Below are positions 21,876 through 27,432 of a stretch of DNA of 64,000 bases, piece after piece. Source of the stretch: Bradyrhizobium sp. ORS 278 (GTDB lineage: Bacteria; Pseudomonadota; Alphaproteobacteria; Rhizobiales; Xanthobacteraceae); assembly GCF_000026145.1 (NCBI RefSeq), contig NC_009445.1, forward strand, positions 5,176,501-5,240,500. The letters are read 5' to 3'. Position numbers and translations under genes: made by a program. Within the stretch, counting starts at the first letter, position 1; every line of letters starts with the position of its first letter. Under the pieces are notes generated by a model. That model was given only the letters and a program-made list of their open reading frames with translations, had not been told where the DNA came from and did not search any database.

Positions 21876-22586
21876 CTAGCTCCCGGGCGGCAGCCTCGGC
21901 ACCGTCGCACGCAGCATCGCGTCGAGCAGCGAATCGGCATCGGTTCCCGGCGGCAAGCGGCGCAGGATGTCGGTGAGACGGCCATCGAGCAGCAGCATCG
22001 TGTAGCCATGCACTAGCGACCACGCGCGCGCGATCGCTGCGGCCTGATCGATCGACAGGTCCTCGCCGCCGGCCTGGCCCTCGCCGCGGGCCGCCACCGA
22101 ACCTGCCAATCCCGCGAACGAGGCCTCGGCAGCATCGTGCAGCGACGGGCGCGAATAGTCGAGCCGCTCGGTGCGGAACATCAGTCCGTACATGCCGGGA
22201 TTGGCCTGCGCGTAGGCGACATAGGCATGCGCCCGCGCCATCGCCTTGTCGATCGGCGTGCCCGGAGACTCGCCTGCTGCCTTCATCGCCGCGTTGAAGC
22301 GCGTGAAGCCGATCGCCGCGAGCTCGCTGACGAGGCCGGTGAGATCCTTGAAATGATGCGTCGGCGCGGCATGCGACACGCCCGCCTCGCGTGCAACGGC
22401 GCGCAAGGTGAGCCCCGCAAGCCCGTCGCGCTCGAGCACGCGCTCGGCTGCCTCCAGCAGCGCCTCCCGCAGCGCACCGTGATGATAGGGCGTCACGACC
22501 TCCGCGGCACGGCGCGGGCGCGCTCGGAGCGAGGGTGTCGCGGCGCGGCGTGGCCGGGCCCGAAGCTGTTCAGTCTTGGTGCTCAT
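21876..22586 (-). CDS. TetR-family transcriptional regulator
   Basis: A 236-residue protein. The N-terminal HTH region from about residue 33 reads YHHGALREALLEAAERVLER, GLAGLTLRAVAREAGVSHAA and HHFKDLTGLVSELAAIGF. The C-terminal ligand-binding half has YVAYAQANPGMYGLMFRTERL. The start at 22586 is used because upstream in-frame sequence reads through the operators. An operator copy sits 19 bases in front of its start, so it probably represses itself and the divergent oxygenase operon. Confidence 0.92.
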   Translation of the reverse strand: MSTKTEQLRARPRRAATPSLRARPRRAAEVVTPYHHGALREALLEAAERVLERDGLAGLTLRAVAREAGVSHAAPTHHFKDLTGLVSELAAIGFTRFNAAMKAAGESPGTPIDKAMARAHAYVAYAQANPGMYGLMFRTERLDYSRPSLHDAAEASFAGLAGSVAARGEGQAGGEDLSIDQAAAIARAWSLVHGYTMLLLDGRLTDILRRLPPGTDADSLLDAMLRATVPRLPPGS

Positions 22587-22605
22587 GAGCCTCCTTATAC
22601 AAGCA

Positions 22606-22624
22606 ATTTTGACAGCGTAAAGAT
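22606..22624. promoter_or_regulatory. TetR operator A1 (divergent promoter region)
   Basis: ATTTTGACAGCGTAAAGAT is a 19-bp imperfect palindrome (8-bp arms, 3-bp centre, two mismatches). It is the same length and layout as A2, B1 and B2. It overlaps the probable tetR promoter and lies just upstream of the -35 of the oxygenase promoter. Confidence 0.72.
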
Positions 22625-22629
22625 TTAGC

Positions 22630-22658
22630 TTGACCCGCGACGTTCCTGCCGGTAGGTT
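22630..22658 (+). promoter_or_regulatory. Promoter of the oxygenase operon
   Basis: TTGACC (22630-22635) and TAGGTT (22653-22658) are separated by 17 bp, a sigma-70 type spacing. Operator A2 begins 2 bp after the -10 element and would cover the start point. Confidence 0.68.
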
Positions 22659-22659
22659 T

Positions 22660-22678
22660 ATCTTTACATCGTAAAGAT
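22660..22678. promoter_or_regulatory. TetR operator A2
   Basis: ATCTTTACATCGTAAAGAT is a perfect 8-bp inverted repeat around a 3-bp centre, the best copy of the four. It lies at the predicted transcription start of the oxygenase gene. Its centre is 54 bp from that of A1. Confidence 0.82.
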
Positions 22679-22695
22679 AAAGTGGAGGAACGATC

Positions 22696-24108
22696 ATGAT
22701 CAACGGCGCACACCCCGCCGGGCAGACCCGCAGCGGACGCAACAATCTCGCGCCGATCCCGTTCGAATGCGACGCGCCGATCCTCAAAATCACCGGCGAG
22801 CTGCCGCGCGAGCTCAACGGCACGCTCTATCGCAACGGTCCGAATCCGCAGTTCGACTCGCCCGGCGCGCACTGGTTCGTCGGCGACGGCATGCTGCACG
22901 CCTTCCATCTGGACAACGGACGCGCATCGTATCGCAACCGTTGGGTCCGCACGCCCAAATTCGAGGCCGAGCGCAAGGCGGGCCGCGCGCTGTTCGGCGG
23001 CTTCGGCCGCAAGCTGGCCGACGCGCCTTCTGACCTCACCGATGGCGGCGTCGCCAACACCAACATCATCTCCCATGCGGGCAAGCTGCTCGCGCTCGAG
23101 GAGGCGCATCTGCCGACCGAGATCGAGCCGGGCACGCTCGCGACCAAAGGCTATCAGGATTTCGGCGGCCGCCTGCGCGGCGCCTTTACCGCGCATCCGA
23201 AGACCGATCCGGTGACCGGCGAGCTGCTGTTCTTCGGCTACAACGCCGCGGGCCCGCTGACGCCGGCGCTGACCTACGGCACGATCGACGCCGCCGGCCA
23301 ACTGACGCGCCTCAATCGTTTCGAGGCGCCCTATGCCAGCATGGTGCATGACTTCATCGTCACCGCCAACCACGTCCTGTTTCCAATCCTCCCGCTCACC
23401 GGCAGCATGCAACGCGCGATGTCCGGCCGGCCGCCCTACGCGTGGGAGCCCGACAAGGGCGCCTATATTGGTGTGATGAAGCGGAGCGGCGACATCAAGG
23501 ACATCGTCTGGTTTCGCGGTGACGCTTGCTACGTCTTTCACATCATGAACGCCTGGGACGACGGTCACCGGATCACCGCCGACGTCATGCAGTTCGACGA
23601 GCCGCCGCTGTTTCCGCATCCCGACGGCCGCCCTACCGATCCCGTGAAGTCGCGCGCGCGGCTGTGCCGCTGGAGCTTCGATCTCGCCGGTAACACCGAC
23701 CGCTTCACGCAAACCTATCTGGACGATCTCACCGGCGAATTCCCCCGCATCGACGACCGCCGCGCGGGGCTCGCGAGCCGCCACGGCTGGTACGCCTGCG
23801 CCAATCCCGATGGACCACCGTTCGGCGCCCTCTCCGGCCTCGCGCATGTCGATTGCGTCGGCGCGCGACGCGCGACATACCTGCTGCCGGACGGCGACAG
23901 CCTGTCGGAGCCGGTGTTCGTGCCGCGCAGCCCCGAGGCGCCCGAAGGCGACGGCTGGCTGCTGACGGTGGTGTGGCGCGCCGAGACAAACACGTCCGAA
24001 ATCGCGGTGTTCGGCGCCACCGAGATCGGCGCCGGGCCGATCGCGCTGGTCCATCTCGGTCACCGCGTGCCCGACGGCTTTCACGGCAACTGGGTCGGCG
24101 CCGCCTGA
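22696..24108 (+). CDS. Carotenoid-cleavage/lignostilbene-type oxygenase
   Basis: A 470-residue member of the RPE65/carotenoid oxygenase family (non-haem Fe(II) seven-bladed propeller). The four metal-binding His are visible in FTAHPKTD, MVHDFIVT, YVFHIMNAWDD and the C-terminal DGFHGNW. ELNGTLYRNGPNPQF and WFVGDGMLHAFHL are classic N-terminal blades. GGAGG precedes the ATG at 22696. It would cleave a conjugated double bond of a carotenoid, apocarotenoid or stilbene with O2. It is divergent from tetR and followed by a membrane-protein gene 62 bases on. Confidence 0.95.
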   Translation: MINGAHPAGQTRSGRNNLAPIPFECDAPILKITGELPRELNGTLYRNGPNPQFDSPGAHWFVGDGMLHAFHLDNGRASYRNRWVRTPKFEAERKAGRALFGGFGRKLADAPSDLTDGGVANTNIISHAGKLLALEEAHLPTEIEPGTLATKGYQDFGGRLRGAFTAHPKTDPVTGELLFFGYNAAGPLTPALTYGTIDAAGQLTRLNRFEAPYASMVHDFIVTANHVLFPILPLTGSMQRAMSGRPPYAWEPDKGAYIGVMKRSGDIKDIVWFRGDACYVFHIMNAWDDGHRITADVMQFDEPPLFPHPDGRPTDPVKSRARLCRWSFDLAGNTDRFTQTYLDDLTGEFPRIDDRRAGLASRHGWYACANPDGPPFGALSGLAHVDCVGARRATYLLPDGDSLSEPVFVPRSPEAPEGDGWLLTVVWRAETNTSEIAVFGATEIGAGPIALVHLGHRVPDGFHGNWVGAA

Positions 24109-24170
24109 CCCGGCATCGCCGCCACTTCCTGCGCAAGCCCCAACCGCACACCGGCATTCAGGATGTCACC

Positions 24171-24728
24171 ATGAAACACGCATTGATCGAATTGGGCACC
24201 GACTTCCTGTCGGCCATTTTCTTTCTCGTGCTCTACCTCGCCACCGGCAGCGTGGTCGTTGCGACATCGGTTGCGATCGGGGTCGCTGTCGCACAATTCG
24301 CTCACGCGAAGATCCGCGGCCAGCAGCTCGGCTTCATGACCTATGCCAGTCTCGGACTGGTCATCGTGCTCGGGGCGATCACGCTGATCACCAACGATCC
24401 GCGCTTCATGTTCGCCAAGCCGGCCATCGCTCATTTCGCCGTCGGCGTCATCATGCTCAAACGTGGCTGGCTGCTGCGCTACGTTCCTCAGCTCGTGACC
24501 GACAATATCCCTGACGCCGTCACAGTGGCGGGCTATGCCTGGGCGGCGCTGATGTTCTCGCTCGGGCTCGGCACCATAGCCGTGGCGCTGAGCGGTGACC
24601 TGAAGCTGTGGGTCCTGTACATCTCGGTGGTCGCGGTCGGCGCCAAGATCGCAGCTTTCGCGATCCAGTACGTCGTCTTCCGCCTGCTGGTGATCCGCCG
24701 GATCCGCGCCGCCCGCGCGGCGGCCTGA
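24171..24728 (+). CDS. YciB/IspZ-like inner-membrane protein, first copy
   Basis: A 185-residue integral membrane protein with about five to six helices. Conserved family signatures are ELGTDFLSAIFFLVLYLATG, TLITNDPRFMFAKPAIAHFA and YAWAALMFSLGLGTIAVAL. It resembles intracellular septation protein A (YciB). About three quarters of residues are identical by eye to the second copy at 25569-26120. It lies behind the oxygenase gene, under the A1/A2-controlled promoter. Confidence 0.85.
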   Translation: MKHALIELGTDFLSAIFFLVLYLATGSVVVATSVAIGVAVAQFAHAKIRGQQLGFMTYASLGLVIVLGAITLITNDPRFMFAKPAIAHFAVGVIMLKRGWLLRYVPQLVTDNIPDAVTVAGYAWAALMFSLGLGTIAVALSGDLKLWVLYISVVAVGAKIAAFAIQYVVFRLLVIRRIRAARAAA

Positions 24729-24870
24729 CGCCGGATCAGACGCCATATTGTCGGCGGCACCGGCCCTCGCTCTGTCGACGCCAGGAGCAATTCGCCGAGA
24801 CGCCGCCCTTCGCGGCCTCGCCTGCCGGCAACCCCTTGATAACCATTCCAGTTGCGTCGCTCCTCACAAG

Positions 24871-24889
24871 ATTTTGACACTGTCAAGAT
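24871..24889. promoter_or_regulatory. TetR operator B1
   Basis: ATTTTGACACTGTCAAGAT is a 19-bp palindrome with one mismatch, sharing ATTTTGAC with A1. It lies immediately upstream of the -35 element. Confidence 0.72.
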
Positions 24890-24894
24890 TCCTC

Positions 24895-24923
24895 TTGACC
24901 AGGAACGCTCGGGCCCGTACTCA
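24895..24923 (+). promoter_or_regulatory. Promoter of the second membrane-protein operon
   Basis: TTGACC (24895-24900) and TACTCA (24918-24923) are 17 bp apart, the same -35 hexamer and spacing as the oxygenase promoter. It is placed between operators B1 and B2. Confidence 0.65.
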
Positions 24924-24941
24924 TCTTTGCACTGTAAAGAT
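24923..24941. promoter_or_regulatory. TetR operator B2
   Basis: ATCTTTGCACTGTAAAGAT matches A2 at most positions (7 of 8 paired arm positions). Its centre is 52 bp from that of B1, almost exactly the A1-A2 spacing. Confidence 0.75.
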
Positions 24942-24960
24942 TAGCTCGGGAGGAGCCGCG

Positions 24961-25545
24961 ATGACGATCTTCCTCATCCTCGCCCCGTACGGCGTCTACG
25001 CCGCGCTGCTGACGGTCGTCTCGGCCACGCTCAGCCTGGTCGTGGGCGCCGCGCTGTGTCTGGCGGTGGTGATGCTGGATGTGGTCAAGGGCCGCTCGGT
25101 CAAGATTCTCGGCCTCGGCTCGGCCATCGTGTTCGCAGGCGTAGCGGCCTACCTTCAGCTCATCGATCCCGCGATGACCGCCTCGGCGGTGCGGATCGCG
25201 GTGGACTGCGGCATTTTCGCGCTATCGCTGGGCTCGATCCTGCTGCGCAATCCCTTCACGCTGCAATATGCCCTCGAGGCCGTGCCGGCCGAAACCGCCG
25301 CCATGCCCGGCTTTTTGCGCGCAAATTACGTCATCACCGGCGCCTGGACGCTTTCGGCGCTGCTGATGATCGTGGGCAACCTGATGACGCTCTACGTCCC
25401 CGGCCTGCCGTATTGGACCGGCCTCGCCATTGCCTTTGCTGCACGCAACAGTGCACTTTATTTCACGCGCTGGTATCCTGAGTATCGCAGGACAAAGGAC
25501 ATCGCCGCGCAGACTGCCGCCGCAATGTCCGGCCAGGATTCGTGA
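24961..25545 (+). CDS. Multi-helix inner-membrane protein of unknown function
   Basis: A 194-residue protein with about six hydrophobic helices (LILAPYGVYAALLTVVSATLSLVVG, GSAIVFAGVAAYLQLI, WTLSALLMIVGNLMTLYV and others). GGGAGGAG is 6 bases ahead of the ATG. The loop LEAVPAETAAMPGFLRANY and the end FTRWYPEYRRT are distinctive, but I do not recognise the family. It is the first gene behind the B1/B2 promoter and is followed by a YciB-like gene. Confidence 0.8.
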   Translation: MTIFLILAPYGVYAALLTVVSATLSLVVGAALCLAVVMLDVVKGRSVKILGLGSAIVFAGVAAYLQLIDPAMTASAVRIAVDCGIFALSLGSILLRNPFTLQYALEAVPAETAAMPGFLRANYVITGAWTLSALLMIVGNLMTLYVPGLPYWTGLAIAFAARNSALYFTRWYPEYRRTKDIAAQTAAAMSGQDS

Positions 25546-25568
25546 CGGTTGGGCCCAGGGAGACGTGC

Positions 25569-26120
25569 GTGAAAGACGTGTTTACGAAGCTGACGGCCGA
25601 TTTTCTCTCGGCCGCCGTCTTCTTCATCCTCTACATCGCCACCGATGACGTCGTGCTGGCCACCGCGGCCGCGGTCGGCGTCGCCATTGTCCAGGTGGTC
25701 TGGGCGCGCATCAAGGGCGTCAGCCTCAGCTTCATGGCCTATGCCAGCGTCGCGCTGGTGATCGTGCTCGGCGGGGTCACCTTGCTGACCAATGATCCCC
25801 GCTTCATGTTCGCAAAGCCCGCGATCGGCCACTTCGCCATCGGCGTGATCATGCTCAAGCGCGGCTGGATGCTGCGCTACGTGCCGCCGATCGTGTCGGA
25901 GACCATCCCGGAATACGTCACCGTCGCCGGCTATGCCTGGGCGGCGCTGATGTTCGCACTCGGCATCGGCACGGTCGCCGTCGCCATGACCGGCGACATC
26001 AAGCTGTGGGTGCTCTACATTACCGTCGTCGCCGGCGGCGCCAAGGTCGCCGCCTTCGCGCTGCAGTTCCTCGCGTTCCGGTTCGTCGTCGCCAACCGCC
26101 TGCGCGCCGCCAGAGCTTGA
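25569..26120 (+). CDS. YciB/IspZ-like inner-membrane protein, second copy
   Basis: A 183-residue paralogue of the 24171-24728 protein, sharing TNDPRFMFAKPAI, HFAIGVIMLKRGWMLRYVP and YAWAALMFALGIGTVAVAM. The GTG at 25569 is selected because homology begins there and AGGGAGA lies upstream. It is 23 bases behind the previous membrane gene, so both are co-transcribed from the B promoter. The duplication with its matching double-operator promoter suggests the unit was copied and diverged. Confidence 0.85.
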   Translation: MKDVFTKLTADFLSAAVFFILYIATDDVVLATAAAVGVAIVQVVWARIKGVSLSFMAYASVALVIVLGGVTLLTNDPRFMFAKPAIGHFAIGVIMLKRGWMLRYVPPIVSETIPEYVTVAGYAWAALMFALGIGTVAVAMTGDIKLWVLYITVVAGGAKVAAFALQFLAFRFVVANRLRAARA

Positions 26121-26257
26121 GCAATGGCTCGAACAAACGCCTAACGACGGCTTGATCGCCGCATTGGGATTATCGGCAAAGATGCGCTATAGGGGCGCGC
26201 GACGGCCCGCGCGCTGATGCGTCGGGCCCCGGCATGGCAACGCCAGGAGAACGATCG

Positions 26258-26554
26258 ATGGCAGTGGACGGCAACTGGAATCTGACCTTGAATACGCCGA
26301 TGGGCGAGCGCAGCGCGACGTTGAGCCTGACGAGCTCGGGCTCGACGCTGACCGGCACCCAGGCGGCCGAGGGCGATTCCGCCGAGATCTTCGACGGCAC
26401 CGTCAACGGCGACGACGTCGCCTGGAAGGTCTCCATCACCAGCCCGATGCCGCTGACGCTCGACTTCAAGGGCAAGGTCGCCGGCGACACCATCTCCGGC
26501 GAGATGGGAATCGGCTTCATGGGCAGCTTCCCCTTCACCGGCGCCCGCGGCTGA
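26258..26554 (+). CDS. Small beta-rich conserved protein
   Basis: A 98-residue protein with alternating strands (GNWNLTLNTPMGERSATLSL, STLTGTQAAEGDSAEIFDGTV, WKVSITSPMPLTLDFKGKVAG, ISGEMGIGFMGSFPF) that suggest a single beta barrel. AGGAGA precedes the ATG at 26258. No signal peptide. Similar short proteins occur in rhizobia, function unknown to me. Confidence 0.75.
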   Translation: MAVDGNWNLTLNTPMGERSATLSLTSSGSTLTGTQAAEGDSAEIFDGTVNGDDVAWKVSITSPMPLTLDFKGKVAGDTISGEMGIGFMGSFPFTGARG

Positions 26555-26561
26555 TCGGCAT

Positions 26562-26700
26562 TTGTAGGGTGGGCAAAGGCGCGCCCCGCTACCGCCGCAA
26601 TGCCGGTGACCTCGCACGCGCCGTGCCCACCATTCTCTTCGATTACGCCGATAGACGGTGGGCACGCGACGCCTGACGGCGCCGCTTTGCCCACCCTACG
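26562..26700. repeat. GTAGGGTGGGCAAAG inverted-repeat element
   Basis: GTAGGGTGGGCAAAGGC starts near 26564 and its complement GCTTTGCCCACCCTAC ends near 26699. GTGCCCACC and GGTGGGCAC form an inner pair. This is a dispersed palindromic element of the type frequent between Bradyrhizobium genes; there is no open reading frame of interest inside. Confidence 0.8.
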
Positions 26701-26734
26701 CTGCCTCGGCACCCTCCGCCGTCGTCCTGGCCTC

Positions 26735-26831
26735 CGAGCCGGGATCCATACGCCGCGGCGAATCTCATGGGCAAAAAAGCCGATCGCCAGTCTGCCTCGA
26801 ACCGCTGCCGCGGCGTATGGGTCCCGGCTCG
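26735..26831. repeat. 24-bp inverted repeat element
   Basis: 26735-26758 and 26808-26831 are inverted copies of a 24-base sequence (23 of 24 match) beginning CGAGCCGGGATCCATACG. The 49 bases between them include GGGCAAAAAAGCC. It is a second kind of extragenic palindrome, directly beside the previous one. Confidence 0.75.
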
Positions 26832-27432
26832 AGGCCGGGACGACGGCGAGTTTTTCCGCCGGCATTTCCGCTTCACATCTCAAACAGCCTGGGACAAGCG
26901 TGCGCGGCCTCGCGGCGGACAACGCCCGAGTGATGCATCGTCATGCCCTTCGACAGCGCAAAGGGCGCAGGGAAGGCCAGGCGTCGGCTGACGCCTGCGG
27001 CCCGCCTGCGAGAAAGAATGCAGGCGGCAGGTACCACAGGTGCAGCCGGGAAACGCCCGGCCTCCCCTGCGCGATGGTCTTCACGGTTATACGCAGTCTC
27101 CCTGGTGCGCCGGCTTTTTGGCCACCATACCGGGACAATGCTTTGCGCATTGCGCGGGAGACACCAGCTTCGGGGTGTCAGGACGCTGCGACTTCCCGTC
27201 CGCGCCGAGCCGTTCGTCCGCGCATCACAAGGATACGCTGCGGCTCGCTTGCGGCCATCGCTCCCCGCCCCGCGTGTCGTGACGATCGCGCGCAACGCCC
27301 CTTCGCAGTGGAGCGGGATGCAGGGAGATAATCACGATTTCCGGAAATTAGCAAGCAAGTTTTTGTTTTTTCGGAATTTTGACTCGCGTCGCGCGCGCCT
27401 GATGCGGATCTGCCGGAAATGTGACGCACTCT
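26832..27432. other. Gene-free stretch with unassigned repeat-like sequence
   Basis: No frame gives a recognisable protein. There are several short inverted pairs (for example GCCGGGAAACGCCCGG near 27046, ACACCAGC-TTCGG-GGTGT near 27160) and an AT-rich patch at 27345-27385 containing TTTTTGTTTTTTCGG. It is probably remnant repeats. Confidence 0.55.

Follow-up and report, generated by a model that had tools for sequence, protein, structure and literature searches.

Why a TetR-family regulator, an oxygenase of the carotenoid-cleavage type and a group of small membrane proteins should share one promoter design is the question raised by a locus of Bradyrhizobium sp. ORS 278. The genes lie in a stretch of 64,000 nucleotides (contig NC_009445.1, positions 5,176,501 to 5,240,500), the whole of which is referred to here as the window, and they comprise tetR, a divergent oxygenase gene followed by a YciB-like membrane protein, and an orphan membrane protein, here called MemX, followed by another YciB-like protein (Table 1). 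A preliminary description of the window had recorded four 19-bp palindromes framing two TTGACC-N17 promoters with spacings of 54 and 52 bp, and both the coordinates and the layout agree with this. Start to start, A1 and A2 are 54 bp apart and B1 and B2 52 bp, and A2 alone among the four operators has two 8-bp half-sites which mirror each other perfectly. Operator A1 was also correctly placed at tetR, beginning 20 bp upstream of its start codon (ATG at 22586, minus strand). Judged by sequence conservation, this is a genuine and widely conserved regulon, and the proposal that tetR, the oxygenase and the membrane proteins belong to a single TetR regulon, each promoter of which has two operators, is supported.

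The operator pairs and their conservation

With up to three mismatches allowed, a degenerate operator pattern gave 14 strand-matches in the window, where 100 shuffles averaged 1.79 and never exceeded 6. The exact pattern is confined to these four sites in the 7.46-Mb genome, and at one mismatch a third pair surfaces at 682175 and 682229, also 54 bp apart. Allowing zero to two mismatches, the genome holds three operator pairs only, the two in the window and one before a gene for a flavin adenine dinucleotide (FAD) oxidoreductase; no further sites less than 60 bp from each other were found among the matches listed at this tolerance. A lone operator-like site in the same genome lies amid a TetR-like gene and a divergent methyltransferase-like gene, both recognised by eye (L007:2239-2257, G000:C1:3166738-3166756), and possibly serves a paralogous regulator with a similar site.

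Conservation of the operators in relatives had been set beforehand as a test, and the surroundings of the oxygenase gene were taken from 52 oxygenase-bearing genomes of the genus and from two loci of other genera, giving 55 rows from 54 distinct loci, as L009 and L091 coincide. At E 1e-60 the oxygenase was detected in 109 of the 117 genomes of the genus, in a few of them in pieces, and an operator pair was found upstream of it in every one of the 55 rows, that is, at 54/54 distinct loci. Its spacing is 53 bp in 35 rows and 54 bp in 17, with 52, 55 and 42 bp making up the rest. A pair also precedes MemX in 48/53 rows (47/52 distinct), spaced by 52 (29 rows), 53 (13), 54 (4) or 51 bp (2). The MemX rows scored as being without a pair are L056, L105, L106, L107 and L082; in L105 one site lies beside MemX with a pair further upstream, and in L082 two sites are present and MemX is a remnant, so the pair was missed by the MemX-anchored script. 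Across 40 genus genomes the single-operator pattern gave 2-8 forward matches per genome, and the reversed-pattern control found matches in 1/40.

The oxygenase-free genomes are also informative. Three of the eight (G098, G051 and G091) retain the TetR and the operators, which there stand directly before MemX/YciB, and G030 retains the TetR, the operators and YciB together with a mere remnant of MemX. No operator was found in the other four (G041, G101, G090 and G048). In G041 and G101 nothing matches this TetR at E 1e-30, and in G090 a piece of the TetR lies at a contig end with the operator region out of view. In G048 (L223:2901-3400) a TetR relative, 43% identical, lies by an open reading frame (ORF) which might, at a guess by eye, be rubredoxin-like, with three ATCTAGAC half-site-like repeats upstream.

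To look beyond the genus, MemX was used to scan named genomes; 334 relatives were confirmed and the best 80 of the 334 loci analysed. These came from Variovorax, Caballeronia, Burkholderia, Paraburkholderia, Rhizobium, Tardiphaga, Afipia and Roseomonas as well as from Acidobacteria, and some of the host genera are root-associated. A TetR of this family (>60 bits) is found in 46/80 and is divergent in 43, of which 26 have an oxygenase of more than 300 bits on the MemX strand, one has an oxygenase on the other strand and 16 have none of that strength; among these 16, L180, L193, L196 and L219 have a weaker oxygenase match, and contig ends truncate some of the stretches. A weight matrix was trained on 42 operators of the window's genus only, applied with any spacing from 25 to 130 bp allowed, and compared with 215 block-shuffled controls. 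The pair score exceeded the control maximum (28.5) in 40/43 TetR-bearing MemX loci, and in 30/33 of those not named Bradyrhizobium, some of the 33 being close kin of each other or of loci already used.

The placement of the pairs relative to the promoter was compared in 147 operator pairs, at least four of which duplicate a place already counted (L091 twice, L143 = L106, L191 = L105); 3 of the 43 named loci are not among them. TTGAC begins 2-5 nt past operator 1 in 146/147 pairs, the exception being L010 with TTGAT, and operator 2 lies on or past the expected -10, at a distance of 15-29 nt from the -35 hexamer (12 in L052).

The best matches of the TetR among solved structures, 3on2 and 3cjd, are named only as transcriptional regulators. 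For 40 of the 43 divergent loci, the helix that we take to be the DNA-reading one was compared with the operators. It reads SH[A/T]AP[x][H/N]HF in 38/40 loci, L171 (SAAAP) and L185 (RHF) being the exceptions. Where the helix carries Ala, base 7 of the half-site is A in 97/108 cases, and where it carries Thr the base is C in 39/52; with His before HF, base 3 is C in 76/116, and Asn there goes with A or G in 37/40. L171 groups with the Thr-bearing TetRs yet has Ala, and its operators are without C at base 7. On a tree built without those columns there are 3 changes per residue, with 2 independent pairs on supported branches (3 in all), and the operator shifts the same way in 1.5-1.7 of 2 pairs on average and never the opposite way. 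It is suggestive that the residues of the recognition helix follow the bases of the operator; statistical proof of coevolution was given up, as the tree holds too few changes.

Table 1. Features of the TetR locus, in positions of the window.
Feature	Positions	Strand	Basis
tetR, TetR-family regulator, 236 aa (amino acids)	21876..22586	-	Pfam scan: PF00440 and TetR_C_33 PF13305
Operator A1, ATTTTGACAGCGTAAAGAT, 19-bp imperfect palindrome	22606..22624	.	Pattern scan and conservation
Putative promoter A, -35 TTGACC, 5 nt past A1	22630..22635	+	Sequence; gap from operator 1 to TTGAC conserved
Putative promoter A, -10-like TAGGTT, N17 spacer	22653..22658	+	Sequence
Operator A2, ATCTTTACATCGTAAAGAT, 19-bp palindrome, perfect half-sites	22660..22678	.	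Pattern scan and conservation
Oxygenase, carotenoid-cleavage-oxygenase family (PF03055), 470 aa	22696..24108	+	Pfam/NCBIfam scans, solved-structure matches, His ligands
YciB/IspA-like membrane protein 1 (PF04279), 185 aa	24171..24728	+	Pfam scan; 66% identical to protein 2
Operator B1, ATTTTGACACTGTCAAGAT, imperfect palindrome	24871..24889	.	Pattern scan and conservation
Putative promoter B, -35 TTGACC, 5 nt past B1	24895..24900	+	Sequence; gap conserved
Putative promoter B, -10-like TACTCA, N17 spacer, shares first base of B2	24918..24923	+	Sequence
Operator B2, ATCTTTGCACTGTAAAGAT, imperfect palindrome	24923..24941	.	Pattern scan and conservation
MemX, orphan membrane protein, 194 aa, without Pfam family	24961..25545	+	Scans; profile homology to FAD oxidoreductase N-terminal domain
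YciB/IspA-like membrane protein 2 (PF04279), 183 aa	25569..26120	+	Pfam scan
Small conserved neighbour ORF, 106 aa, without Pfam family, candidate regulon neighbour at most	26234..26554	+	Scan, neighbour comparison

Membrane partners and a putative third target

Partner genes were counted in 50 same-genus loci, 30 of which are short stretches ending near the YciB gene. The pairing of YciB-like proteins emphasised in the preliminary description is real in the window, but it is not the general state: the usual order in relatives is oxygenase, then MemX, then one YciB-like protein, and among these loci the window's genome is the only one in which a full-length YciB-like protein was seen behind the oxygenase as well as behind MemX. 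In Tardiphaga-type loci a short YciB-like stretch lies between the oxygenase and MemX (L105, L183, L186, L188, L189, L191), and in L015, L016, L023, L030, L043 and L045 there is no MemX and a single YciB comes right after the oxygenase. As the partner genes vary among loci, neither membrane protein is indispensable or by itself defines the regulon. YciB-like partners are found mainly in the wider relatives of the window, MemX being the more widespread partner.

Both YciB-like proteins pass the gathering score of the YciB/IspZ septation protein A family (PF04279) but fall far under the equivalog cut-off, their best scores for septation protein A / IspZ being 54 and 51.7 bits against 180. MemX is not recognisably a member, and the Pfam scan assigned it to no family. 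It has 3,283 homologues at E 0.001, the best 120 of which are hypothetical or nameless apart from one stray kinase label, and the regulon gives this unnamed family a genetic context. Its predicted structure has six long helices (mean predicted local distance difference test score, pLDDT, 77.5), and a Foldseek search returned no solved structure resembling it (best E 0.43). That MemX and YciB form one family was considered and dropped, the hhalign probability being 0.5% and only 1/10 members weakly matching PF04279 (E 0.06).

The third operator pair, at 682 kb, precedes the gene for a protein of 707 residues, the first 190 of which form a membrane domain and the rest an FAD oxidoreductase of the phytoene-desaturase type. 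The profile of MemX matches this N-terminal domain with 97.8% probability (E 7e-13). The promoter at 682 kb has the same layout as those of the window, in the order operator, 5 nt, TTGACG, N17, TATGCT, 1 nt, operator. The best folds for the oxidoreductase are gamma-carotenoid desaturase 4rep and CRTI 4dgk (model pLDDT 86). The C-terminal part thus resembles the CrtI/CrtISO desaturases and isomerases, from which the protein differs in its extra MemX-related membrane domain, and it misses the cut-offs for CrtI (142.9 of 238.1 bits, TIGR02734) and carotenoid isomerase (147.1 of 586.9 bits, TIGR02730).

No tetR-like ORF was seen by eye within 11 kb around the 682-kb gene, and no relative of this TetR lies within 9-12 kb around the FAD oxidoreductase in G030, G098 and G065. 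The gene is present in 6/117 genus genomes (E 1e-100), and the operator pair precedes it in four of the six (54 bp apart in the window's genome, 56 in G065, 53 in G098 and 54 in G030). In G033, where the protein is 52% identical, the contig ends at the gene start and the upstream region is out of view. G030 and G098 have the FAD oxidoreductase with its operators and lack the oxygenase.

In the wider family the gene was found in 18/248 genomes. Outside the genus, 14/16 loci (L108-L121) show by eye repeats of another kind, GGTACC-N4-GGTACC or something close to it, occurring twice around the likely promoter, and a further TetR relative (32% identity) is found in L122 and L123. The expectation that Rhodopseudomonas-type genomes would share the operator at this gene was dropped, since GGTACC-type repeats stand there instead. 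L118 has a divergent ORF which, by reading only, resembles another TetR regulator. The simplest reading is that this gene has come under different repressors in different lineages and that in Bradyrhizobium it would be controlled by this TetR, in trans; the different repeats suggest an exchange of repressors. The gene offers a case of a distant enzyme gene carrying the same operator in one genus and different repeats in its relatives elsewhere.

The oxygenase and its possible substrate

The oxygenase matches PF03055 (Pfam RPE65) over its full length (profile positions 2-468 of 469), with a score of 453 bits. His167, 218, 282 and 463, which from the family alignment we take to be the iron ligands, are kept in 53/53 aligned rows; these represent 51 distinct loci, as the window and G065 each appear twice, and a partial G075 copy was left out. 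Among NCBIfam models the best was the lignostilbene dioxygenase NF053778, at 422.6 bits and under its 800-bit equivalog cut-off; the cut-off of the 8'-apo-carotenoid 13,14-cleaving dioxygenase NF052295 was likewise missed (313 of 675 bits), and none of seven oxygenase relatives scanned (0/7) reached an equivalog cut-off. The protein shares with the lignostilbene-alpha,beta-dioxygenase family (LSD, NOV1/NOV2) the PF03055 fold and the four iron-binding His, and lignostilbene dioxygenases are its best matches among solved structures, but it differs from them in its score and in its active site. At the phenol-binding Tyr and Lys sites of lignostilbene dioxygenase it has Phe103 and Glu135, again in 53/53 rows. 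In 15 class-level relatives (L128-L142, 45-57% identical) the Lys site is occupied by Glu (10 relatives) or Asp (5), and at the Tyr site 12 relatives have Phe and the other 3 have Thr or Gly. The two sites correspond to LSD residues 101 and 134, which we presume to be equivalent to Y136 and K169 of MapADO, and the distances fit. In MapADO, Y136 and K169 are reported to be essential for placing the phenol (PMC12308385). With Phe and Glu in place of the phenol-binding pair, stilbene cleavage is unlikely, and the stilbene-cleaving activity offered in the preliminary description was abandoned after this comparison. The oxygenase looks like an uncharacterised branch of its family.

Whether a carotenoid of the cell's own making could be the substrate was assessed from the distribution of CrtI-family desaturases. 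These were found above cut-off in 11/117 genus genomes (E 1e-60), all 11 of them oxygenase-bearing, so that 98/109 oxygenase genomes show no CrtI-type desaturase, of which draft gaps may hide some. This scarcity makes a self-made carotenoid unlikely as the usual substrate; more probably the compound comes from outside the cell or is no carotenoid at all. The desaturase-type folds of the third target may point to a polyene.

Regulatory mechanism, alternatives and known systems

We propose that dimers of an autorepressing TetR bind the two 19-bp operators framing each promoter of the regulon, operator 1 ending 2-5 bp upstream of the -35 and operator 2 falling on or just past the -10, and that both dimers jointly exclude RNA polymerase as a steric clamp. 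Two dimers flanking the polymerase site would be the simplest reading of the layout. The regulon would consist of tetR, the oxygenase with YciB1, MemX with YciB2 and, in trans, the fused membrane/FAD oxidoreductase at 682 kb. A small lipophilic ligand would release the TetR, upon which the oxygenase would cleave a C=C bond of a conjugated compound, presumably no 4-hydroxystilbene and in most hosts no carotenoid of their own making, and the membrane proteins may handle or buffer that compound in the membrane. Taken as a whole, from the autoregulated clamp to the substrate and the roles of the membrane proteins, we consider this account reasonably probable.

Chance can yield imperfect palindromes, and the binding of TetR at the operators is a prediction, so the sites could in principle be fortuitous or belong to another regulator; given the shuffled and reversed-pattern controls, the conservation of the pairs and the joint absence of the TetR match and of the operators from G041 and G101, this is extremely improbable. 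The preliminary description had further held that the layout would suit looping or cooperative repression. In such a model two dimers, separated by some five turns of the helix, would contact one another and lock the promoter, and the spacing itself would be functional. Spacings of 51-55 bp at the oxygenase and MemX promoters of the genus are indeed near five turns, and the outlier L052, with 42 bp, comes to four, as though one turn had been deleted. However, leaving aside L157, L166, L169 and L185, the spacings in loci not named Bradyrhizobium are 45, 46, 49 and 52-57 bp, of which those of 45-49 and 56-57 bp lose the same helical face, so a face-dependent loop is not favoured; at the FAD oxidoreductase of G065, too, the spacing is 56 bp, and the distance from operator 1 to the -35 is the steadier one (146/147). 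Within the window's own genus taken by itself (51-56 bp, with a single case of 42 bp) such a loop is conceivable. Looping as an essential feature was dropped after this survey, and as an alternative to the clamp it seems decidedly unlikely.

A membrane-stress regulon, with the TetR, MemX and YciB as the core of an envelope module whose promoter the oxygenase uses as a passenger, draws on the four oxygenase-free genomes that retain the TetR-MemX/YciB part, on the 16/43 divergent TetR-MemX loci without a strong oxygenase (the four weaker matches included) and on the recurrence of MemX as a fused domain of the FAD oxidoreductase. Set against these are the 26/43 loci in which the oxygenase lies on the MemX strand with the TetR on the other, the retention of the oxygenase in 109/117 genus genomes, and the 8/50 loci in which MemX is lost or a remnant and the oxygenase stays, and we regard this alternative as unlikely. 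If instead the regulon served stilbenoid or lignostilbene catabolism, the oxygenase cleaving plant 4-hydroxystilbenes or isoeugenol-type phenols, then the best NCBIfam model, the solved relatives and the root-associated genera among the hosts would find a ready explanation, but not the score of 422.6 bits against a cut-off of 800, nor Phe103 and Glu135 in every row, nor Glu or Asp at the Lys site in 15/15 class-level relatives; we hold this to be quite improbable.

The clamp regulon should nevertheless be considered with some caution, as several observations weigh against it. The FAD oxidoreductase relative of G014 (51% identical) is without an operator pair, and G048 has a distant TetR relative (43-46% identical) in another setting and without this operator. 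No TetR of this family was found in 34/80 MemX loci, within the stretches examined; among those which have one, L166 (best pair 64 bp), L169 (30) and L185 (49) score below the control maximum, and L157 (60 bp) passes with one strong and one weak site. MemX is absent in 6 and a remnant in 2 (L017, L029) of the 50 same-genus loci, and YciB is missing from L056, L085 and L086. With about three switches per residue of the recognition helix, no p<0.05 can be reached on the tree. The operators, their conservation and the gene content are seen directly in the sequences; binding, repression, the ligand, the substrate and the role of the membrane proteins are predictions.

The claim that no such system had been described holds in part only. 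In Mycobacterium kansasii the TetR regulator CcoR is divergent from a carotenoid oxygenase and represses it, and its loss raises cco1 expression ~100-fold and leaves cells that fail to colour; the orthologous pair, Rv0653c/Rv0654, is also present in M. tuberculosis, a species that produces no carotenoids (PMC9861118). Likened by gene arrangement, in which a TetR(/AcrR)-family regulator is divergent from a PF03055 oxygenase and the orthologous locus is also kept in one species without carotenoids, CcoR/cco1 is the closest described system. It differs in belonging to another phylum, and membrane partners, a double operator and the FAD oxidoreductase are not mentioned in that portion of the report (PMC9861118). 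Among open-licence papers, none was found in which a TetR-oxygenase pair is linked with either these membrane proteins or a double operator; those on Bradyrhizobium or TetR with carotenoid oxygenase, or on septation protein, gave nothing on this system by title or start of abstract. A term search of a review of microbial carotenoid oxygenases did not find the word Bradyrhizobium (PMC5133782). A TetR-repressed oxygenase of the carotenoid type was thus already known, and what is new are the membrane partners, the promoter layout and the third target. No open-licence paper was found which says what the oxygenases carried by 109/117 genus genomes serve for.

One family occurs both as a free-standing protein and as a fused domain, both under one repressor beside oxidising enzymes, and it is on this basis that a role of MemX in handling substrate is suggested. 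It is a tentative and rather doubtful extension of this idea that MemX is the first member of a family of membrane modules which present lipophilic conjugated molecules to oxidising enzymes, either standing free next to the oxygenase or fused to the desaturase-like enzyme, and that the TetR system is an inducible circuit for sensing and breakdown, with which bacteria of soil and roots, mostly non-makers of carotenoids, detect the polyenes or apocarotenoids of others. As the operator is conserved and readable, the inducing compound should be findable by means of a double-operator reporter.

A few individual loci depart from the general arrangement. At L052:3412-3472 (G025), where promoter A has the 42-bp spacing, about one helical turn is lost and the usual -10 region is gone, which makes it a natural experiment on the proposed clamp. 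A third operator lies upstream of tetR in G098 (L081:7276-7294), 115 bp ahead of the usual pair, and in G017 an extra operator pair, 53 bp apart, lies where one ORF of a hydrolase-like tandem of two begins, both being M20 peptidase-like by reading (L084:7306-7377; G017:C1:2613305-2613376). The oxygenase matches of L093:2120-3488 (G075) and G070:C2:9282074-9283363 each come in two separate pieces and may represent a broken gene. In the window itself a long inverted repeat at 26700-26870 (GCCGTCGTCCTGGCCTC... / ...GAGGCCGGGACGACGGC), downstream of the small ORF, resembles by eye an intergenic repeat element.

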